Source of the DNA: Cyanobium sp. CZS25K
GTDB lineage: Bacteria > Cyanobacteriota > Cyanobacteriia > PCC-6307 > Cyanobiaceae
DNA length: 64,000 nucleotides
NCBI GenBank assembly: GCA_030373325.1
Contig: JAUCZB010000006.1
Coordinates: forward strand, 1 to 64,000
Direction: 5' to 3'
Shown here: positions 223 to 43,190 of the stretch, one piece after another
How positions within the stretch are numbered: the stretch's first letter is position 1
How the letters are laid out: each line of letters begins with the position of its first letter
Notes under the pieces: generated by a model
Told to the model about the DNA's origin: nothing
Databases searched by the model: none
The model's input: only the letters and a program-made list of their open reading frames with translations
Program-made: the position numbers and the translations under genes

Positions 223-3200
223 ATGGATGAGTTCGGTGTCTCCGCAGGTCTCTCCGAGGCGATGCGAAGCCGCTTTTTCGACTTCTGCCTGATCGCGGGC
301 CTGTCAGGCACGGATCTTCTGGTCTTCGATGCGGTCAATGGCAACATTCTTGCCTGCAATCCATCGGCGCATGAGCGCTTGAAATACAGCAGCACGGAGA
401 TGCTGGCCCTCTCCCATGAGGCGATCCAGGCCGATCCCGCTCACGACGCTTCCTGGGCAGCCGAACGGCACCGTGAAGTGCTGAGCAGCGGAGGCACAAC
501 CTATCGCACCCGCCACCGCTGCAGAGACGGTTCCATCCTCGATGTGGTCGTCAGCAACACCGTTGTTGAACTGGACGGCCAGACGCTGATCGTAAGTTGT
601 GTCCGCGATGAAACCCAGCAGCACCGTCGGGAAATCCAGCTGGAGGACACGCTACGGCTGCTGGACGATGGGGCGGCGATCTCAGGCATCGGCGTCTGGG
701 AACTGCGCTTTGTCGATGGCCGGTTGCGCTGGTCAGAGCAGATGCGGCGCCTCTGCAGATGGCAGGGCGGCACAGACTTCAGCTCGCTCCAGGCCTATGA
801 GGCCCTGGTGCATCCCGACGATCGCCTGCGCTGGCAATTGGATTTTCGGCGGGCCGTGAACCGCGGCGACATGTTCCAGAGCTGTCATCGGCTCAGCTTT
901 GAGGACGGCACGGAGTTGATGGTGCAGGAGGTGGGGCACGTCAGCTACGACGAGAGCGGCGCCCCGATGCGCATGGTGGGCACCCTCAGGGATCTCACGG
1001 ACGAACACTCTCTGGTGCAGCAGCTGACGGCAGAGCGATCCTGCGACCCTCTCACCGGGCTGCCTAACAAACTCGCCTCCCTGGAGGAACTGAACCGGCG
1101 ACTGAGGGGTCGCAGCTACAACGCTTCGCTGGCCGTTTTGAGCCTGGATGTGGATGGGTTTCAGGCCATCAACGAGAACTTCGGCTCCGATGTGGGGGAT
1201 CAGGTGCTGCAATCCATCGCTAGTCGGCTGCGGGCCATCACCGGTCCGAAGGACTGGCTGGCTCGCCTGAGCAGCGACCAGTTTCTGATCGTGATGGAGG
1301 AGGGAATCGGCTCGATCGGCGATGCGATGAAAGCCGCCCAGCGCCTGCAGCAAAACTGGAGCCAACAACAGAGGTTGCTGAAGGATCTGCCCCTGCATCC
1401 AACCTTTTCGGTCGGCATCGCCACCTTTCCCGAACATGCTCAAGAGTCCCAGACGTTGATCCAGTGCGCCAACACCGCCCTGATGAAGGCCAAAACCCAT
1501 GGCCGTATTCAGGTGTGTGCGTACTCGAGCACGATCAGCCGTAAGATTCAGGAGCGTATGGAACTGGGCAGCCAACTTTCTGCGGCCATTGAACGGGAAG
1601 AGTTCCGGCTACTGGTTCAACCACTGCTGGACCGATCCAGCGTCCTGTCAGGTGGGGAGATTCTGCTGCGCTGGAACCATCAGCTCAGCATCTCCATGCC
1701 GACGAGCCAGTTCATGCAGCTCGCGGAGGAGAGCGGTCAGATCTTCCAGCTATCGGCGTGGGTCATGCGTCAGACCCTGCAGCAGATCAGCGCCTGGCAG
1801 AACCTCGGCCTGCAGCCGCCCCGACTGGCCTTGAATGTCTCACCTCGGGAGCTGGAAAGGCCTGGACGGCACTTCATCAGCGCCCTGATGGAGGCGATGC
1901 GTGAATACAAGCTGAATCCGGAGCAGCTCGAGCTGGAAATCACGGAATCGGCTTTGACTCGCAATCCGCTGCTGGCCCGTGAACAACTGCGGGTGCTCGC
2001 CGAGCAGGGGTTCCGGATCGTGCTCGACAACTTCGGAACCGGTTACTCCTCGCTGGACCTGCTGCGCACCCTACCGGTGCATCGACTGAAGATCGATCGC
2101 ATCTTTGTGAAAGACATTGCGGCATCCACGGTGGATCAGACCATCGTGACCACCGCAATCACCCTGGCCCACGGCCTGGGTATGGATTGTGTTGCTGAGG
2201 GGGTGGAAACGGAAGCTCAGCGCCGGATTCTGGAGGATCTTGGCTGCGATTGTTTCCAGGGATTTTTGTGCGGACATCCTCTGGAACTACAAGATTTCGA
2301 GAGCCTGCTGAAGATGGAGACACCAACTGCCAGCCAGGATCGGGAACAGAGAAGCCGCGCCACATCAGAGCGTTTCCTGCATCTCGATGCACCAGGAGAC
2401 AGTGCTGGCGTGCCCAGCACCTTTGAGCAACTCAGGCTGCTTCGCAGGGCCTTGGACAACAGCAACGATTACTTTTTCCTGCTGCAACCAATCTATCACC
2501 ACAACGGCAGCATTGAGGACTTCCAGATTCTCGACGTCAACCAGGCCTCCTGTGCTGCCTTGCGACAGGATCGTGAAGCGATTGTGGGCCAGATGCTGCT
2601 GACCATCCTCCCTCAGGTGAGCCGGAATGGCCTGATGGAACTCTATGTCGATGCCGCGTTGCGCAATGTCCCGAGCTCCTTCAATGGCTTTGTCTCCAAT
2701 GTCCAGGACTCCAGCCTTGGCAGCCGCACGTTCGACATCGAGGTCACTCCCGACCAGGGGAACCTCGTGGTGACCTGGAGGGATGTCTCTGAACGCCAGC
2801 AGGCCCTGCGCAACCTGGGGGACGCGGCTGCTCTGTACAGGCTGCTGGCCGACAACATCGTGGACGTGATGCTCCTCCTGAATCGCCTGCAGCAGGTGGT
2901 GTGGGTCTCGCCATCACTTCAAACGATGACAGGCTGGCAGCAGAAGCAATGGCTCGGGCGCACCTTCCACGAGCTTTTCGCCACAGCCGACGACCCTGCC
3001 GAGCCGGTGGATCTGGATCACTGGCTGGCGGAGTCGGGTCCGATCCGACAGGGTCGTCTGCGGCTGAGCGACCCGAAAGGGGGCTGGAGCTGGGTGCAGC
3101 TCAGCGTGCGCCAGTTCAATCGCGAAGAGCTTCGCCACCTCAACACCATGGGCCTTGCCACCAGTGGGGAGGTGGAACCGGTGGGTGCCAGCCTGAGTCT

Positions 3201-3762
3201 GGAGCACGGCTATGTCATCACCCTGCAGCCGGTGGATCAGCAGGTGCTGGAGGAACGCCTGCTGCTGCAACGCGCCAACAGCGACCCACTGACAGGTCTT
3301 TACAGCCGGGCCGCCATCCTTGGCCAGCTGGAGCAGGAGCTTCTGGACGAGAGGGCCTGCAGCGCCCAGCCCCTGGCCCTTCTGTTCTGTGACTGTGATG
3401 ATTTCAAAGGCATCAACGACCGCTATGGCCACGCCTGCGGCGATGCGGTGCTGAAGACGGTGGCCCAGAGGATCAACGCCCAGATCCGCTGTAGCGATCA
3501 TGCCGGCCGCATCGGGGGCGATGAATTTCTGGTGTTGCTCGAGGGGATTCAGAGCCTGGATGATGCTGTCGCCATCGCGGAAAAGCTCCAGACCAGCGTC
3601 AACGAGCCGATCAGCTGGAGCGACGCCACCATCACGGCTTCGTTCTCGATCGGAGTTGCGCTGCATGGGGCCGGTGAGGATGCGGATCTGTTCCTCAATC
3701 GCGCCGACCGCAACATGTACGCGGCCAAGTCCGCTGGGCGCCACCGGGTCGTGGCCCTCTGA
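223..3762 (+). CDS. PAS-PAS-GGDEF-EAL-PAS-PAS-GGDEF cyclic-di-GMP signalling protein
   Basis: Large cytoplasmic-looking cyclic-di-GMP protein of 1179 residues with no membrane segment. Order: PAS about 30-125, PAS about 150-265, GGDEF about 270-435, EAL about 455-695, two further PAS-like regions about 740-1000, and a second GGDEF about 1020-1175. The first GGDEF signature reads SSDQF and should be inactive. The EAL signature reads EIL, and DDFGTG reads DNFGTG, so phosphodiesterase activity is doubtful although NVS, EITE, KIDR and EGVE are kept. The C-terminal domain has a canonical GGDEF preceded five residues earlier by RCSD, a product-inhibition RxxD site, so it is the likely diguanylate cyclase. 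The gene stands alone. Substrate chemistry is inferred from motifs; the PAS ligands are unknown. Confidence 0.93.
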   Translation: MDEFGVSAGLSEAMRSRFFDFCLIAGLSGTDLLVFDAVNGNILACNPSAHERLKYSSTEMLALSHEAIQADPAHDASWAAERHREVLSSGGTTYRTRHRCRDGSILDVVVSNTVVELDGQTLIVSCVRDETQQHRREIQLEDTLRLLDDGAAISGIGVWELRFVDGRLRWSEQMRRLCRWQGGTDFSSLQAYEALVHPDDRLRWQLDFRRAVNRGDMFQSCHRLSFEDGTELMVQEVGHVSYDESGAPMRMVGTLRDLTDEHSLVQQLTAERSCDPLTGLPNKLASLEELNRRLRGRSYNASLAVLSLDVDGFQAINENFGSDVGDQVLQSIASRLRAITGPKDWLARLSSDQFLIVMEEGIGSIGDAMKAAQRLQQNWSQQQRLLKDLPLHPTFSVGIATFPEHAQESQTLIQCANTALMKAKTHGRIQVCAYSSTISRKIQERMELGSQLSAAIEREEFRLLVQPLLDRSSVLSGGEILLRWNHQLSISMPTSQFMQLAEESGQIFQLSAWVMRQTLQQISAWQNLGLQPPRLALNVSPRELERPGRHFISALMEAMREYKLNPEQLELEITESALTRNPLLAREQLRVLAEQGFRIVLDNFGTGYSSLDLLRTLPVHRLKIDRIFVKDIAASTVDQTIVTTAITLAHGLGMDCVAEGVETEAQRRILEDLGCDCFQGFLCGHPLELQDFESLLKMETPTASQDREQRSRATSERFLHLDAPGDSAGVPSTFEQLRLLRRALDNSNDYFFLLQPIYHHNGSIEDFQILDVNQASCAALRQDREAIVGQMLLTILPQVSRNGLMELYVDAALRNVPSSFNGFVSNVQDSSLGSRTFDIEVTPDQGNLVVTWRDVSERQQALRNLGDAAALYRLLADNIVDVMLLLNRLQQVVWVSPSLQTMTGWQQKQWLGRTFHELFATADDPAEPVDLDHWLAESGPIRQGRLRLSDPKGGWSWVQLSVRQFNREELRHLNTMGLATSGEVEPVGASLSLEHGYVITLQPVDQQVLEERLLLQRANSDPLTGLYSRAAILGQLEQELLDERACSAQPLALLFCDCDDFKGINDRYGHACGDAVLKTVAQRINAQIRCSDHAGRIGGDEFLVLLEGIQSLDDAVAIAEKLQTSVNEPISWSDATITASFSIGVALHGAGEDADLFLNRADRNMYAAKSAGRHRVVAL

Positions 3763-8034: not shown

Positions 8035-9070
8035 CGCCGTGCCCCTCCGCCGCCCTTGCCAGGGGCAGCACCGGCACCGGCCAGGCGGTCCTCAGGCCGT
8101 CCGTCAAGGTGAGTTGCAGCCACTCGATCTCCCAGAGGTCGCCGTCGGCGCGCAACGCCTCCGGCAGTTCCACCCGGAAGCGGTAGCTGCCGCGCTCCGG
8201 CAGACGCAGATGCAGCTCGCGGCGAACCGACAACCAATGGTCGCCATCACTCGAGCTGTGGACCACCGCAACCATCTGGCGATGGCGCAGGCGAGGACGG
8301 CCCTGGGCATCGCTCACGGCCAGCACAATGGCGGCCGTGACAGGCGGGGTCCCGAGGGGCGGATTGTCGTGGGGCAGCTCCCAGCGCGCCAGCACGTCCA
8401 CCCGCAGCACCCCTGGGCCACCCACCTCACAACGGATCGCCGCGGTCCCCTCCCCGCAGCGGCTGACCCAGCGGCCCCGGCCGATGCCGTAGCTGGCCAT
8501 CAGCAGCACCTGCACCACCGCCAGGGTCAGCACGGCGGTGAACAGCAGCATCGGCGTGTCGACGCTGTGGTTGTGGAGGCTGCCGCGCACGACGACAGGG
8601 TGCGGCAGGGGCCGGCCGGCCTCATCGAGCAGATCCTGCAGCTGCACGGCCAGCTGGAAGCGTCCCGTCCGTCCCGGCCGCAGGGCCAGTGCCAGACCGG
8701 CATCCCTCTCCTCCCAGGTGCCGCTCTCCCCCCCCTCCGCCCAGGTGCCGCTGGCCCGCCAGCCGTCCTTGGTGAGATCCAGCACGGTGCGGCCGGTCCC
8801 ATCCAGCAGGGTCACGTCCAGCTCGATCGAGCTGTTGGCGGGGATCTCGGCCGTCAACGCCAGCCGGGGGCTGCCGAGCCAGCCGTCCTTCAGCTCGAAG
8901 GGGGCACTGAGCACGCGCTCCCCTTCCGGCACCACCATCACCAGGCGCCTGGGCACCTCCAGGGCCGACAGCAGAAGCACCAGCAGGGGCAGCAGCGGCA
9001 GCACCAGGCTGGCCAGCGGCCAGAGCAACAGCGCCGGATCCCGTCGCCCAGGCTCGGAAGCAGGCCCCAT
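8027..9070 (-). CDS. Membrane protein of unknown function, polyamine cluster
   Basis: A 347-residue protein with an N-terminal hydrophobic segment (about 12-40), a beta-rich probably extracytoplasmic domain (about 50-170), a second helix (about 173-195) and another beta-rich domain ending in a hydrophilic tail. Repeated strands such as IELDVTLLDG and RFRVELPEAL suggest two immunoglobulin-like or carbohydrate-binding-like sandwiches, which is a guess. It is the first gene of the four-gene minus-strand set that ends with DUF4178, and it is divergent from the DUF350 gene with 54 bp between the starts. Confidence 0.75.
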   Translation of the reverse strand: MGPASEPGRRDPALLLWPLASLVLPLLPLLVLLLSALEVPRRLVMVVPEGERVLSAPFELKDGWLGSPRLALTAEIPANSSIELDVTLLDGTGRTVLDLTKDGWRASGTWAEGGESGTWEERDAGLALALRPGRTGRFQLAVQLQDLLDEAGRPLPHPVVVRGSLHNHSVDTPMLLFTAVLTLAVVQVLLMASYGIGRGRWVSRCGEGTAAIRCEVGGPGVLRVDVLARWELPHDNPPLGTPPVTAAIVLAVSDAQGRPRLRHRQMVAVVHSSSDGDHWLSVRRELHLRLPERGSYRFRVELPEALRADGDLWEIEWLQLTLTDGLRTAWPVPVLPLARAAEGHGDA

Positions 9071-9124
9071 CAGCGGCTGGCTCCCGGAGTGTCCCTACGG
9101 TGGAGCTGGCTTCGTGACGAGGGG

Positions 9125-9334
9125 ATGGTCAAACCACTGCTCCAGATGCTGCTGATGGTCGGCTGGACCTTTCTGGGCATCATCCTCATCTACGTCGGGT
9201 TGCTGCTTTTCGATCGCCTGTCGCCGATCGATTACCGCGCCGAGATCCGCAGGGGCAACATCGCCGCCGGGGTGGTGCTGGGGGCCGTGATCCTGGCCAT
9301 CGCCGCGGTGGTGGTGGCGGTGCTCTCCACCTGA
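9125..9334 (+). CDS. DUF350 family small membrane protein
   Basis: A 69-residue protein with two transmembrane helices (about 5-30 and 44-68) separated by DRLSPIDYRAEIRRGN. The conserved acidic/polar loop and the GNIAAGVVLGA start of the second helix are typical of DUF350. DUF350 proteins co-occur with DUF4178 and spermidine synthase, as here. It is divergent from the rest of the cluster and 13 bp upstream of the helicase start, so it may be co-transcribed with the helicase. The ATG at 9125 is chosen; the longer upstream reading frame is an antisense shadow. Confidence 0.85.
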   Translation: MVKPLLQMLLMVGWTFLGIILIYVGLLLFDRLSPIDYRAEIRRGNIAAGVVLGAVILAIAAVVVAVLST

Positions 9335-14526: not shown

Positions 14527-15810
14527 TTGGCCGACACCCTTCAGGCCCCCATGGGCCCAAAGAACCCTCAGGCGATGAACATCCCTGTCGTGCGGCGTGA
14601 TAGCAACGACCCCGATCGCAAGCCTGGCTCGAGAATCACAGGCAGCGAATATCATCCGCCCTCAAGGAGAACAGTCGCATCCATTCAGCGGATCTTCACA
14701 CTGATCACCCTTGTCAATGGACTTGTTCTGCTGTACCTCGTCATCGCCGCCATCCAACTGCTGAGGGTTCCAGGCAACCGCTCAGCGGAGATCTACGTCT
14801 CGCTGATTCTCACACTGCTCCTGGTTATTCTGGCCGTTCTTTCCTATCAGATCATCGCCAGGCGCATCATCCAACCGATCGCCCGCCTGGTACGGGAAGC
14901 CAGTGCGATCGAAACCGATGATATGCACAGTCTGCTGACCATTCGGAGCAACGACGAAATTTCGAGATTGGCGCAGGCCTTCAATGCGGTGCTGGCCAGG
15001 ATGCGACAGGCCCTGGTTGCCGGTGAAGCCAGCAATCAACAACTGCTTGAGGCCAATCGGCAGATCGAAGCTTCCATCAACTATGCGGGACTGTTGCAGC
15101 GATCGATCCTTCCCGATCGACAGCTTCAGGAAACCTTCGGCAGCGATCATTTCATCCTCTGGCTACCGCGCGACACCGTAGGCGGTGATTACTACATCTT
15201 CCACTCGGATGGCGGTCATTGCCTGGCGGGCGTGGCCGACTGCGCCGGCCATGGCGTCTCAGGCGCCATGATGACGATGCTGGCCAGAGCAGGAATCGAC
15301 CGTTCCATCATGGAAGTTGGAATCACCTCTCCAGCCGCCATTCTGAGCTGCACAGACACGGCAATGCGCACCTTGTTGCATGGGGCCAGATTGAGCAAGT
15401 CCATCGCAACCAGCATGGACATTGGACTGGTCCGTCTTGACTTCGAAGCCAGATCACTTAGATTTGCCGGTGCAAAGATCAGTCTGTACTGGAGTAACGG
15501 TGAAACCATGAATATGCTCAGAGGAGACAATCGGGCCATCTGTGATCACCGTGTCGGCGCTTACAATGACCATGACATTCCTTTGCTGCCTGACTGTACT
15601 TACTATCTCACCACAGATGGGCTGCTGGACCAATCCGGGGGTGAACACGGCTTTTCACTGGGCTCCCAGCAGTTCACGGAATGGCTGATCCGGCTGGCCC
15701 GTCAGCCCCTTGAACAGCAACGTCAGTCCCTTACCGAAGCCCTTGATACGTTTCGAGGCAGTCACCCCCAACGGGACGACATCACCATCCTCTCCTTCCG
15801 TTTTACCTAG
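14527..15810 (+). CDS. siaA: SiaA-like membrane PP2C phosphatase with HAMP domain
   Basis: A predicted membrane-bound serine/threonine phosphatase of 427 residues from the TTG start (ATG at 14551 and 14575 are alternatives). Two transmembrane helices (about 56-79 and 93-113) are separated by only about 13 residues, so the large periplasmic sensor of Pseudomonas SiaA is missing. HAMP is at about 113-165, then a coiled-coil linker and a SpoIIE-type PP2C domain with TVGGDYY, ADCAGHGVSGA and QRDDIT, the metal-binding positions. By analogy it dephosphorylates the SiaC protein encoded two genes downstream. GC content is visibly lower than in flanking genes. Confidence 0.87.
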   Translation: MADTLQAPMGPKNPQAMNIPVVRRDSNDPDRKPGSRITGSEYHPPSRRTVASIQRIFTLITLVNGLVLLYLVIAAIQLLRVPGNRSAEIYVSLILTLLLVILAVLSYQIIARRIIQPIARLVREASAIETDDMHSLLTIRSNDEISRLAQAFNAVLARMRQALVAGEASNQQLLEANRQIEASINYAGLLQRSILPDRQLQETFGSDHFILWLPRDTVGGDYYIFHSDGGHCLAGVADCAGHGVSGAMMTMLARAGIDRSIMEVGITSPAAILSCTDTAMRTLLHGARLSKSIATSMDIGLVRLDFEARSLRFAGAKISLYWSNGETMNMLRGDNRAICDHRVGAYNDHDIPLLPDCTYYLTTDGLLDQSGGEHGFSLGSQQFTEWLIRLARQPLEQQRQSLTEALDTFRGSHPQRDDITILSFRFT

Positions 15811-15879
15811 ATGCAGCCCTGATGTCCCGTCCGATCATCCGCAGCGGTCCCTTATCCCAGCCAAACATGGCCAATCGAT

Positions 15880-15909
15880 TGTTTTCCGAGGAGCTGTTTT
15901 CCGAGGAGC
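15880..15909 (+). repeat. 15-bp perfect tandem duplication at the siaB ribosome-binding region
   Basis: The unit tgttttccgaggagc occurs twice without change (15880-15894 and 15895-15909), seven bases before the siaB ATG at 15917. Each copy carries a GAGGAG Shine-Dalgarno-like core. A 17-codon ORF starting at 15867 runs through both copies and stops at ATGA overlapping the siaB start. Confidence 0.85.
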
Positions 15910-15916
15910 CGAAGCC

Positions 15917-16468
15917 ATGACCTTCACCACCACCAGTCTGATCTCGCTGAGGGAGTTCTTCAGTGAATATCAAATCCTTATCTGCTTCAATGGGCCCATC
16001 TCTACCACTCTGATTGGCGAGATCGGCTCTGCGATCAAGGAACACATTGAATCCAATCACACACCGGAGCTGGAAGTGATGGATGTGTTCAGTGTCTACA
16101 TCGAAATGAGTCAGAATATCCGAAACTATGCCATCAGCCATGGCTTCAGCGACGCGGAATCCTCCGCAACGGTTGTCATTGCTGCTGCCGACGCTGGCCA
16201 TTACGCCGTCTGTGCAGGTAACCTCGTAGAGATGGAGGATGGAAAGGTCCTGCTGAAGCGGATCCGCGAACTTGCCGACTGCGACAAGGCTGCTTTGAAG
16301 CTGCTCTACAAGCAGCAGCTTCGCCAGCCCCATTCCCAGGCCCCAGGCCAGGGTGCAGGCCTGGGACTCATTGAGATTGCCAGGCGCTCGACCCAACCCA
16401 TGGAGGCTTCCCTTGACCCCCTCGAGCCCGGTGGTCGTGCCTTCTTCAGCCTTCGTGCCATCATCTGA
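15917..16468 (+). CDS. siaB: SiaB family protein kinase
   Basis: A 183-residue GHKL-fold kinase. The N box EMSQNIRNYA (about 68-77) and the glycine-rich ATP lid GQGAGLGLIEIAR (about 150-162) are visible. In Pseudomonas SiaB phosphorylates SiaC, opposing the SiaA phosphatase. Gene order A-B-C-D is preserved, and siaC starts 4 bp after this stop. The ATG at 15917 gives the family length (about 180). A longer in-frame start inside siaA exists but is unlikely. Confidence 0.87.
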   Translation: MTFTTTSLISLREFFSEYQILICFNGPISTTLIGEIGSAIKEHIESNHTPELEVMDVFSVYIEMSQNIRNYAISHGFSDAESSATVVIAAADAGHYAVCAGNLVEMEDGKVLLKRIRELADCDKAALKLLYKQQLRQPHSQAPGQGAGLGLIEIARRSTQPMEASLDPLEPGGRAFFSLRAII

Positions 16469-16472
16469 TCCC

Positions 16473-16868
16473 ATGAGCAGCAGCGAAGAAGTCAACCTGT
16501 CCGTTCCGGGCTCCCAATCCAGCCCATCCATTCGCGCGGATTGGAAGGCTGGAGTTGTTGTCATGAGTGGAGAGTCCTATCCTGAGAATTCCTTTGAACT
16601 GTATGATCAGCTGATTCAATGGATTGAATCCTATCTTTCCAGTTCTGAGCAATCACTGACGCTTGAGCTGCATCTCAACTACCTCAATACCAGCAGTATT
16701 CGGTTCATGATCGATATTTTCGATTTGCTGCAGACCTCCTTCGAGGATGGCAAGGAAGTCCTGGTCCAGTGGATGTTTGATGATCGCAATCCTCGCTCTG
16801 CCGAACTAGGCTCTGAATTCAAGGAAGATTACACCTTTCCCTTCTTGATTCTTTCGATCAATGCCTGA
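16473..16868 (+). CDS. siaC: SiaC family regulatory phosphoprotein (DUF1987)
   Basis: A 131-residue STAS-like switch protein. The signature LNYLNTSSIRFMIDIFDLL (about 68-86) contains Thr73 and Ser74/75. The Thr aligns by eye with the phosphorylated threonine of Pseudomonas SiaC. In the known system unphosphorylated SiaC binds and activates the diguanylate cyclase SiaD, while SiaB and SiaA set its phosphorylation state. It overlaps siaD by 8 bp. The coding sequence is strikingly AT-richer than the window average, which suggests acquisition from a lower-GC donor. Confidence 0.88.
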   Translation: MSSSEEVNLSVPGSQSSPSIRADWKAGVVVMSGESYPENSFELYDQLIQWIESYLSSSEQSLTLELHLNYLNTSSIRFMIDIFDLLQTSFEDGKEVLVQWMFDDRNPRSAELGSEFKEDYTFPFLILSINA

Positions 16869-17727
16869 GATGCAGGAGCCCTTCTCCTTCCTATCTGATG
16901 AGCAATTGGAACAGGAAGTCATGGAGATCTTGGCCAATCCTCGTTACGATGATCATCCAGCCCGCGAGCTGCTATCTCGATTGTGGCATCGCATTGAAGA
17001 GCAGATTGGCCGTCTCGAACGGGTTGCTGATATCTCCGATCTCTATCAGTCCCATGTGGTGGAAAACAACCGAAGTCTGACCAATCGCTACGAGAAGCAG
17101 TTGCGTCAGATCAAGCGAGTTGTACGCATTTCAGACCTCTATCAGGCGTCGTTGAAAGAGGTCAACCTTTCGCTCTTCGAAGCCTCGACCCATGACCCCT
17201 TGACGGGAATTTCCAATCGTCGCTTCATGGCAGAACGCTGTCTTGAGGAAGATCAGCGCTCCACCCGACATGGATCCACCTACGCGATGATTATTATCGA
17301 TGTGGATCACTTCAAGCTCATCAATGACGAATACGGTCATGCCACAGGAGATCTGATGCTGGTGGATTTCGTCAAGGCACTCTCCAGCAGTCTGCGCCAC
17401 TACGACATCATTGCTCGGTGGGGAGGGGAAGAATTCCTGGCGTTGCTGATTGACGCCAATCTCTCCTCAGCGGAGTTGGTGGCCAAGCGCATGCTGGCCA
17501 ACATTCGCAACATGAGAGTTTCCATTGACGACATGAAACTGAGTCTTACCGCCAGCATGGGATTGACCGAGCACAAGCCGGATGAAAACTACAACGCAAC
17601 GTTCCGTCGGGCGGACAAGGCCCTGCTCATGGCCAAGAACGGAGGTCGCGATCGCTGTGTGGTGATTGATCCTGCCGATCCTCTGAGCCATCGCGAGATC
17701 AGTACGTTGACTTCTAACGCTGAGTGA
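16861..17727 (+). CDS. siaD: SiaD-like diguanylate cyclase
   Basis: Makes cyclic-di-GMP from two GTP. The 288-residue soluble protein has an N-terminal coiled-coil region (about 1-105) that contains two related segments around RVADISDLYQSHV and RVVRISDLYQASL. The GGDEF domain follows (about 110-275) with DPLTGISNRR, an intact GGEEF signature and RHYD five residues before it (inhibitory site). Pseudomonas SiaD has the same layout and uses its N-terminal coil to bind SiaC. It ends the operon and faces nrdJ convergently. Confidence 0.9.
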   Translation: MPEMQEPFSFLSDEQLEQEVMEILANPRYDDHPARELLSRLWHRIEEQIGRLERVADISDLYQSHVVENNRSLTNRYEKQLRQIKRVVRISDLYQASLKEVNLSLFEASTHDPLTGISNRRFMAERCLEEDQRSTRHGSTYAMIIIDVDHFKLINDEYGHATGDLMLVDFVKALSSSLRHYDIIARWGGEEFLALLIDANLSSAELVAKRMLANIRNMRVSIDDMKLSLTASMGLTEHKPDENYNATFRRADKALLMAKNGGRDRCVVIDPADPLSHREISTLTSNAE

Positions 17728-41034: not shown

Positions 41035-41424
41035 GTGACCGAGTCCCTGCCCGCGGTCCCCTCCATTGCCGAACTGGAAGTGGGTCAACGGCCCTTCGTT
41101 CTCGCCGATTCCCTCGGCAAGGTGATCCGGGTGAATGGGCCCTTCTGCCACATCTATGGCTGGAGAGAAGAGCAGCTGGTGGGCCAACCAATCGGCATGA
41201 TCCTGCCTGAGTCGTTCCGGATGGCCCACCAATTCGGATTTTCCCGGTTTCAGGCTACGGAAGTTTCCACGATTTTGGCCCACCCCCTGCGGCTCCAAAC
41301 CCTCTGTGCGGACGGTCAGTCGCTGGTTTCCGAGCATTTCATCGTGGCGGAGAAGCTTGCCACGGGTTGGGTTTTTGGCGCCACCCTCACGCCTCTGCCT
41401 GAGGGCACTCCCACGGACGCATGA
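41035..41424 (+). CDS. Stand-alone PAS domain protein
   Basis: A 129-residue protein (GTG start) that consists almost entirely of one PAS domain: FVLADSLGKVIRVNGPFCHIYGW, then GWREEQLVGQPIGMILPESFR and a C-terminal strand ATGWVFGATLTPL. Its stop overlaps the next gene's ATG (ATGA), so it is co-translated with a PAS-GGDEF-EAL enzyme and may act as its separate sensory or adaptor subunit. No heme or flavin ligand residue can be assigned by eye. Confidence 0.85.
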   Translation: MTESLPAVPSIAELEVGQRPFVLADSLGKVIRVNGPFCHIYGWREEQLVGQPIGMILPESFRMAHQFGFSRFQATEVSTILAHPLRLQTLCADGQSLVSEHFIVAEKLATGWVFGATLTPLPEGTPTDA

Positions 41425-43190
41425 CCAATCCGCAGCCAGGCTCGGAAACGCCTCTGGTTCTGGAGTTGCGCCGCCAATTGGCTTGCCTGGAATTGGCCCT
41501 TGGCCAGATCAACGATGCGCTGGTGATCACCGATGCCCAAGGGAGTCTGCTCTGGTGCAACCGGCGATTTGAACAGCTGCAGCAGCGGCCGCGCCTGCAG
41601 ATGCTGGGCAGCACCTTGGAGGCGTTGCTGCGGCCGCAACTGGCTGGGGCGACAGTGCCGGATCTCAACGGCCTGGTTCGGGAGCGGCCCCAGGGAGGCC
41701 TGATCACCCTGGGCTGGCAGCGTGAGCCGCCCCTGGTGCTGGAGCTGGAGTGGGGCCCGGTGCAGTCGGAGCAACCCACCCCCTTTGTGTTCAGCTTCCA
41801 CGATGTGAGTGATCGGGAATCACTTCAGGTTTTGCAGCAGCAATCGAGTGAGTTGGTGGATCAGCAATTGGCCTTGGCGCAGCAGGTGGTGACCTGTCCG
41901 GTGACAGGACTGCCCAACCGGCGTGGATTTGCCGGTGCGATTCAGGGGGCCTTGCAGCGCTTGCAGCAGCAGTCGGGTTGGCTAGCCGTGCTGTTCTGTG
42001 ATCTCAATCGGTTCAAGGAGGTGAATGACACCTTTGGCCACCAGGTGGGAGACCAGTTGCTGATCGAGCTGGCACGGCGCATGCAGCTGGTGACCCGGGC
42101 GGACGATGTGCTGGCGCGCCTCGGTGGGGACGAATTCGTGCTGTTGTGCACGGGGCTCGATACACCAGAGCAGGCCATACTCCTCGCCGAACGTCTGCGC
42201 GAGGCGGTGTCCCGCCCCTGGAGCCCCCAGGGGGTGAATGGGGCGATCGTGATTCAACCCGAGATCAGCATCGGTATCTCCTTCAGTGATCAGGGTGTGG
42301 AGACACCTGATCGCCTGTTGCATGACGCCGATCTGGCCATGTATGAAGCGAAGACCCGCACGGATCGCCAGATTGTCGTGTACGACGAGGTGATCAGCTC
42401 CCAGCTGAACCGTCGCATTGCCATCAGGCGCAGCTTGCAGAACGCCCTGAATACCTGGGCCATTCCCGTACACTTCCAGCCCTGGGTCTGCCTGCACCAA
42501 GCAGTGGTGCAGGGTTTTGAGGCTCTCGTCAGGCCTCTGGATCTGCAGGGGATTCCGATCGCTCCGGCCGACCTGATTGCCGTCGCGGAGTCGTCGGGTC
42601 TGATGACTTCTCTCGGACAACTGGTGCTGGAGCAGAGTCTGGTTGCCTTCAAGCAGTTGGGATTGCTGAGCAGCGGTCGTTGTCTGGCGGTGAACTTCAG
42701 TCCCCAGCAGTTGGCCCGCCCGGGCTTTGCCGCCGATGTGATCGGCCTGGTGGAGCGTCTGCAGGTTCCGCCCCCCATGCTCTGCATTGAAGTGACCGAG
42801 ACGGCCCTGATCGAGCAGCCGCAGCGCACCCGGGATGCGTTGGCGCTGCTGCGGGAGGCGGGATTCCGTGTGTATCTCGACGACTTCGGCACCGGATATT
42901 CCAGCCTGAACTGGTTGGCGGAACTGCCGATCGATGGCTTGAAGATCGATCGAGGCTTCACCGCCAGCATGACCGTGGATCGTCGGCGCCACACCCTGAT
43001 CGCTGCCATTCTGGGATTGGCCCGCGACCTGGATCTCGACGTGGTGGCGGAGGGCATCGAGCGGCCCGACCAATGGGACGCCCTGCGCAGCCTGGGCTGC
43101 CCGCTGGGCCAAGGGTATCTCTTCAGTCGCCCGTTGCCGGCGCAGCAGCTGGGCCAGCTGCCATCAGTTCTTCTTCCAACAACAGATTGA
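41421..43190 (+). CDS. PAS-GGDEF-EAL bifunctional cyclic-di-GMP enzyme
   Basis: A 589-residue protein with PAS about 20-125, GGDEF about 150-315 and EAL about 325-575. GGDEF is canonical (ARLGGDEFVLL) and is preceded five residues earlier by RADD, an inhibitory RxxD site. The EAL domain keeps GFEALVRP, NFSP, IEVTETAL, DDFGTGYSS, GLKIDR and AEGIE, so both synthesis and hydrolysis of cyclic-di-GMP are possible. No membrane segment is present. The last 68 bp overlap, tail to tail, a remnant gene behind mfd-B. Confidence 0.93.
   Translation: MTNPQPGSETPLVLELRRQLACLELALGQINDALVITDAQGSLLWCNRRFEQLQQRPRLQMLGSTLEALLRPQLAGATVPDLNGLVRERPQGGLITLGWQREPPLVLELEWGPVQSEQPTPFVFSFHDVSDRESLQVLQQQSSELVDQQLALAQQVVTCPVTGLPNRRGFAGAIQGALQRLQQQSGWLAVLFCDLNRFKEVNDTFGHQVGDQLLIELARRMQLVTRADDVLARLGGDEFVLLCTGLDTPEQAILLAERLREAVSRPWSPQGVNGAIVIQPEISIGISFSDQGVETPDRLLHDADLAMYEAKTRTDRQIVVYDEVISSQLNRRIAIRRSLQNALNTWAIPVHFQPWVCLHQAVVQGFEALVRPLDLQGIPIAPADLIAVAESSGLMTSLGQLVLEQSLVAFKQLGLLSSGRCLAVNFSPQQLARPGFAADVIGLVERLQVPPPMLCIEVTETALIEQPQRTRDALALLREAGFRVYLDDFGTGYSSLNWLAELPIDGLKIDRGFTASMTVDRRRHTLIAAILGLARDLDLDVVAEGIERPDQWDALRSLGCPLGQGYLFSRPLPAQQLGQLPSVLLPTTD

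Follow-up and report, generated by a model that had tools for sequence, protein, structure and literature searches.

A SiaABCD operon with a membrane-hairpin form of the SiaA phosphatase in Cyanobium sp. CZS25K and its relatives

The DNA analyzed here, called the window below, is the first 64,000 nucleotides of contig JAUCZB010000006.1 of Cyanobium sp. CZS25K (assembly GCA_030373325.1; forward strand). Positions 14527 to 17727 contain four genes in the order siaA-siaB-siaC-siaD, which from their sequences make up a complete, orthologous SiaABCD module. In Pseudomonas aeruginosa, SiaC is phosphorylated on Thr68 by SiaB and dephosphorylated by SiaA (PMC7647112), and in its unphosphorylated form SiaC docks on two motifs of the SiaD stalk and thereby activates SiaD (PMC8457831). 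We consider it probable that the cyanobacterial proteins form an orthologous partner switch with cyclic di-GMP (c-di-GMP) as its output, in which SiaA has turned into an intramembrane-sensing phosphatase. The clade-wide membrane hairpin of SiaA is a new architectural variant of the known module. No paper on SiaABCD in cyanobacteria was found in the literature searched.

Results

All four genes are read from the forward strand. siaA (14527–15810) encodes a membrane PP2C phosphatase of the SpoIIE type, siaB (15917–16468) a SiaB-family kinase of the GHKL type, siaC (16473–16868) a DUF1987/SiaC phospho-switch protein, and siaD (16861–17727) a diguanylate cyclase whose helical stalk spans 78 residues. 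The start codon of siaA is a TTG at 14527 that is conserved in the clade; the other three genes start with ATG. The spacing of siaB and siaC (a gap of 4 nt) and of siaC and siaD (an overlap of 8 nt) suggests translational coupling; siaA and siaB are separated by 106 nt. The siaB frame already opens at a TTG at 15710, within siaA; conservation favors the ATG at 15917 as the start. A 15-bp sequence on the same strand, TGTTTTCCGAGGAGC, is tandemly duplicated just before siaB (15880–15909), doubling a Shine-Dalgarno-like GAGG. The duplication is unique to this genome among the 12 aligned and is missing from the 11 aligned orthologs of the same clade.

Assignment of the four proteins was based on NCBI equivalog models. 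An earlier reading made from the letters of the window (the sequence-only reading) had announced a complete SiaABCD operon in a cyanobacterium and proposed profile searches as a check. Both parts of that claim were upheld: the four open reading frames are in place, and SiaB (NF038264; 241.8 bits, cut-off 225), SiaC (NF038265; 186 bits, cut-off 150), and SiaD (NF038266; 310.2 bits, cut-off 290) all scored above the cut-offs. SiaC also matched the Pfam SiaC family with 123.6 bits against a cut-off of 24.5. SiaA reached 419.4 bits with NF038263, below the cut-off of 700, because the N-terminal half of the model is absent from the protein; the match covers model positions 300–657 of 658. Three further cyanobacterial SiaA proteins gave 413–447 bits with matches beginning at model positions 310–313, and full-length SiaA from Aromatoleum and Verticiella gave 965 and 903 bits. 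By its sequence, the window protein is thus best described as a SiaA domain variant rather than a strict equivalog. Each protein also gave a strong sequence match to solved P. aeruginosa proteins in the PDB: SiaA, 6k4e (1.4e-89); SiaB, 6kko (7.4e-57); SiaC, 6k4f, 6kko, and 7e6g (2e-39); and SiaD, 7e6g (2.7e-75). In an AlphaFold model the best PDB match of the SiaA PP2C domain was SiaA-PP2C, 6k4e, with a template modelling score (TM-score) of 0.95, normalized by target length. Sequence and predicted fold together indicate a phosphatase domain of the P. aeruginosa SiaA type.

The catalytic and interface residues that were checked, which match residues tested in P. aeruginosa (PMC7647112, PMC8457831), are kept in the window proteins and in their relatives. 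The PP2C/SpoIIE catalytic domain of SiaA (15211–15804; Pfam match to residues 229–426) contains the motifs GGD, DCAGHG, TDG, and QRDD, which hold the metal-binding Asp residues known in P. aeruginosa as D457, D474, D600, and D653 (PMC7647112). In SiaC, the counterpart of P. aeruginosa Thr68 is Thr73 (codon 16689–16691), in the motif YLNTSS (PMC7647112), as the sequence-only reading had expected; Thr is found at this position in every aligned relative except one degenerate copy with Ala. The SiaD stalk carries two copies of the SiaC-binding motif ISDLYQ (within 17032–17145; residues 58–63 and 90–95; PMC8457831), both of which keep the interface Ser, Asp, and Gln. They are followed by an RxxD-type I-site, RHYD, at residues 179–182 and the GGEEF active site at residues 188–192 (17422–17436). 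The AlphaFold model of SiaD has a single stalk helix (33–110) ahead of the GGDEF domain, as in 7e6g, with a mean predicted local distance difference test score (pLDDT) of 87.7.

The N-terminal half of SiaA differs from that of relatives outside the cyanobacteria. It consists of a first transmembrane helix (TM1; 14683–14766, residues 53–80), a periplasmic turn (14767–14781), a second transmembrane helix (TM2; 14782–14862, about residues 86–112), and a HAMP domain (14854–15009, residues 110–161). In the AlphaFold model (mean pLDDT 77.5), helices 53–80 and 86–130 are joined by a turn of residues 81–85 and followed by a linker helix and the PP2C domain. By sequence, the unconserved loop is about 10 residues long, compared with 263–286 residues between the helices in six SiaA proteins from outside the cyanobacteria (Azoarcus, Aromatoleum, Verticiella, Desulfosporosinus, and other Bacillota). 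This agrees with the claim of the sequence-only reading that the extracellular sensing domain is missing. When five of the long proteins were scanned, four gave dCache-like matches, all below the Pfam cut-off. In the SiaA of Azospirillum the helices lie about 127 residues apart, and a SiaA-like phosphatase from Caballeronia lacks membrane helices altogether; across bacteria, the input half of SiaA is thus modular.

The short hairpin is not peculiar to this genome but is found throughout the clade. Cyanobacterial SiaA proteins with an intact N-terminus have two helices 12–24 residues apart by hydropathy; one (locus L069) has a single segment above the hydropathy threshold, yet it shows the same sequence pattern as the others. 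The start codon of the window siaA was predicted from sequence, and a further N-terminal domain could in principle have been left upstream or lost through a frameshift. We find an annotation or assembly artefact of this kind scarcely credible, because the same short architecture is present in about 25 other assemblies and only 180 bases separate the siaA start from that of a divergently read antiporter gene (14346), too little for a large domain. A search of the genome for a second copy of the hairpin gave weak matches alone, over the TM2/HAMP part.

Conservation within the hairpin is uneven. Across ten cyanobacterial lineages, pairwise identity was 14% for the loop, 47% for TM1, 47% for TM2, and 48% for HAMP. 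In all 26 aligned rows, the Asn within TM1 (Asn64 in the window), two TM1 Leu residues, and the juxtamembrane IQ..F motif preceding TM1 were invariant. One misaligned row, L065, was left out; it also carries the TM1 Asn. A conserved polar residue inside the membrane, combined with an unconserved loop, would favor the membrane as the input rather than an external ligand. Sensing could instead have been lost, with the hairpin serving as a mere anchor and the switch being set by expression and by the SiaB kinase (for example, through ATP or energy state). The unconserved loop, the lack of a folded extracytoplasmic domain in the model, and the divergent Caballeronia operon, whose phosphatase does without any membrane helix, agree with such an anchor. 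We nevertheless judge it unlikely, since the TM1 Asn and IQ..F are invariant while the N-terminal tails and loops share only 10–14% identity, since TM1 is as conserved as HAMP, and since HAMP, which usually relays a signal from the membrane, has been kept.

The distribution of the operon was determined with the SiaC equivalog cut-off. Of 300 genomes from the same family, 30 have SiaC, including 17 from the same genus (the window genome among them); a phylum-wide sample of 386 genomes yielded 5, all from the genus of the window. Outside the family, the broader Pfam model gave nothing more in the phylum than marginal matches in two genomes. Carriers include strains named Cyanobium, Synechococcus, and Aphanothece, among them Synechococcus sp. 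BO 8801 and Cyanobium sp. N.Huapi 1H5. A survey of gene order, also proposed by the sequence-only reading, showed that in most carriers, from five genera of the family, siaABCD is followed by the convergent nrdJ, a methyltransferase gene, and prfC; the exceptions are loci L061, L062, and L065.

The low GC content noted in the sequence-only reading was confirmed. The operon has a GC content of 0.543, compared with a mean of 0.670 (SD 0.050; z = −2.5) over 135 overlapping segments of 3.2 kb taken from this genome; five of these segments are lower still, so the value is low yet not unique. The sequence-only reading had also, by implication, taken the low GC as a sign of transfer, and this did not stand. 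In all 28 cyanobacterial carriers, the operon is below its flanks, by 3.0–13.5 percentage points (mean 9.8), including some carriers with only 50–60% protein identity. Because the gap persists across lineages so far apart, it is no mark of recent arrival; low GC is a standing feature of the operon. Elsewhere, the operon was not lower than its flanks in three proteobacterial loci and was 2–7 points lower in three Bacillota loci.

Comparison with the core neighbor NrdJ led to the same conclusion. Distances among concatenated Sia proteins followed those among NrdJ proteins (26 genomes; Mantel r = 0.928; 0 of 9999 permutations), and the Sia and NrdJ trees agreed in 13 of 23 splits. The NrdJ tree places every carrier in a single 36-row clade that also contains the non-carriers from the same genus. 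Outside this clade lie nine relatives with small genomes, none of which has sia. Traces of repeated loss are present in relatives. Two genomes of the same genus (L107 and L109; G250 and G268) have an empty site, with the antiporter gene and nrdJ 80–104 bp apart and no sia between them. Another genome (L111, G292) retains a relic beside nrdJ, about 194 residues of siaD (8665–9246; 77% identical); siaABC, the antiporter gene, and a pentapeptide gene are all gone. In G200 (L064, L026) the operon is degenerate, with Ala at the SiaC phospho-site (YLNASS), an in-frame TAA in siaC, and a broken siaA. In G140 (L061), the operon lies away from nrdJ, and its Sia proteins group with those of G227 while its NrdJ groups with that of G121; this operon may have moved between lineages within the family.

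The single locus, the congruence with NrdJ, and the relics and empty sites show that the operon is old in the clade and mostly vertically inherited. Judging from these comparisons, the ancestor of the family's Cyanobium-like clade most likely already carried it beside nrdJ and prfC. The low GC, and the absence of the operon from the sampled cyanobacteria of other families, could also be explained by recent acquisition from a low-GC donor. That origin is very improbable: one locus beside nrdJ is shared by five genera, Sia distances follow those of NrdJ, the low GC is common to carriers as little as 50–60% identical, and the relics and empty sites point to loss. We therefore reject recent transfer; the clade ancestor itself may have acquired the operon long ago. 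In the Sia tree, the outgroups sit on long branches.

The window genome encodes 26 GGDEF, 11 EAL, and 4 PilZ domains, and thus c-di-GMP signalling exists in this organism. All 17 carriers tested have at least seven GGDEF domains, and relatives without any GGDEF domain also lack sia, as expected if SiaD feeds an existing c-di-GMP network. A 671-residue family 2 glycosyltransferase (L157, 1877–3892; genome G000, contig C16) has a borderline C-terminal PilZ match and, from its sequence, is a candidate c-di-GMP-controlled polysaccharide synthase. The window itself contains two further proteins with GGDEF and EAL domains, a PAS-EAL-GGDEF protein of 1179 residues (223–3762) and a PAS-GGDEF-EAL protein of 589 residues (41421–43190), each in a stretch of somewhat lower GC.

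Discussion

By analogy with P. aeruginosa, SiaB would phosphorylate SiaC on Thr73, and phospho-SiaC would be unable to bind SiaD. Activated SiaA would remove the phosphate, and free SiaC would bind both ISDLYQ motifs of the stalk and stabilize the active SiaD dimer. The resulting rise in c-di-GMP would favor aggregation or attachment, an output suggested by Pseudomonas and by c-di-GMP effects in other cyanobacteria (PMC10117731). Cyanobacterial SiaA would pass its signal from two helices and a very short turn through HAMP to PP2C. Because this arrangement lacks the large periplasmic (dCache-like) domain, SiaA is most likely an intramembrane sensor that monitors the condition of the bilayer or a membrane partner through TM1, with its invariant Asn64. 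We tentatively propose, as one possible course of events, that the Cyanobium-like lineage evolved an intramembrane-sensing PP2C in which a transmembrane hairpin, with its conserved in-membrane Asn, directly links c-di-GMP synthesis, via the phospho-switch, to the condition of the membrane or a membrane partner.

P. aeruginosa SiaA is reported to respond when cold or sodium dodecyl sulfate perturbs the membrane (PMC12834913), and a membrane input for the cyanobacterial protein would fit that response. The statement in the sequence-only reading that the input must differ was therefore too strong, as a bare transmembrane hairpin could still sense perturbation of this kind. Several points weigh against the proposal. 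Replacing residues 1–336 of P. aeruginosa SiaA by a CusS part abolishes cold-induced biofilm formation (PMC12834913); the region lost from cyanobacterial SiaA may therefore matter for sensing, and the cyanobacterial protein might act constitutively or answer to a different input. That swap removed the whole sensing half and did not tell the helices and the periplasmic domain apart (PMC12834913). AlphaFold modelled SiaA as a monomer, and confidence is modest for its membrane part (pLDDT block means of about 63–82). Several relatives have lost the operon or carry it in broken form, so it is dispensable, and in a genome encoding 26 GGDEF domains SiaD could have a narrow physiological role.

Among known systems, the closest is SiaABCD of P. 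aeruginosa (PA0172-PA0169; PMC7647112, PMC8457831, PMC12834913), which has the same gene order, all four families, and the same SiaC phospho-Thr, SiaD stalk motifs, GGEEF, I-site, and PP2C metal residues. The window operon differs in its cyanobacterial host and in a SiaA from which the large periplasmic domain, some 280 residues long in its proteobacterial relatives, is missing. Plasmid loci of Azospirillum (L127) and Caballeronia (L130) likewise combine a SpoIIE phosphatase, SiaB, SiaC, and a GGDEF protein, and their SiaC proteins are 29–41% identical to that of the window. The Caballeronia phosphatase (L130, 2285–3400), in a SiaABC-GGDEF operon, has an N-terminal part without a Pfam match and is another input variant. 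The HptB-HsbR-HsbA-HsbD and BgrU/V/W-BgrR systems (PMC7647112, PMC8457831) also control a diguanylate cyclase through a phosphatase, a switch kinase, and a phospho-switch protein; their subunits are different, the switch protein having a STAS domain instead of DUF1987/SiaC. In its two transmembrane helices and linker of fewer than 25 residues, SiaA resembles the intramembrane-sensing histidine kinases SaeS, BceS, and LiaS (PMC4388633), whose linkers are too short for a ligand-binding domain (PMC4388633). Unlike these proteins, it has a SpoIIE/PP2C phosphatase with HAMP, and no histidine kinase, as its effector. The likeness is in architecture, with no homology claimed; SiaA may work like these kinases at its input without being a member of their group.

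These results extend to picocyanobacteria, with the functional residues intact, a partner switch that has been studied in P. aeruginosa. The short SiaA amounts to a natural domain deletion, and comparison of long and short forms should show whether the periplasmic domain or the helices sense membrane perturbation. In Pseudomonas, SiaABCD turns membrane stress into a signal to "stick together"; in Cyanobium-like cyanobacteria, the operon offers a concrete candidate system for controlling aggregation.

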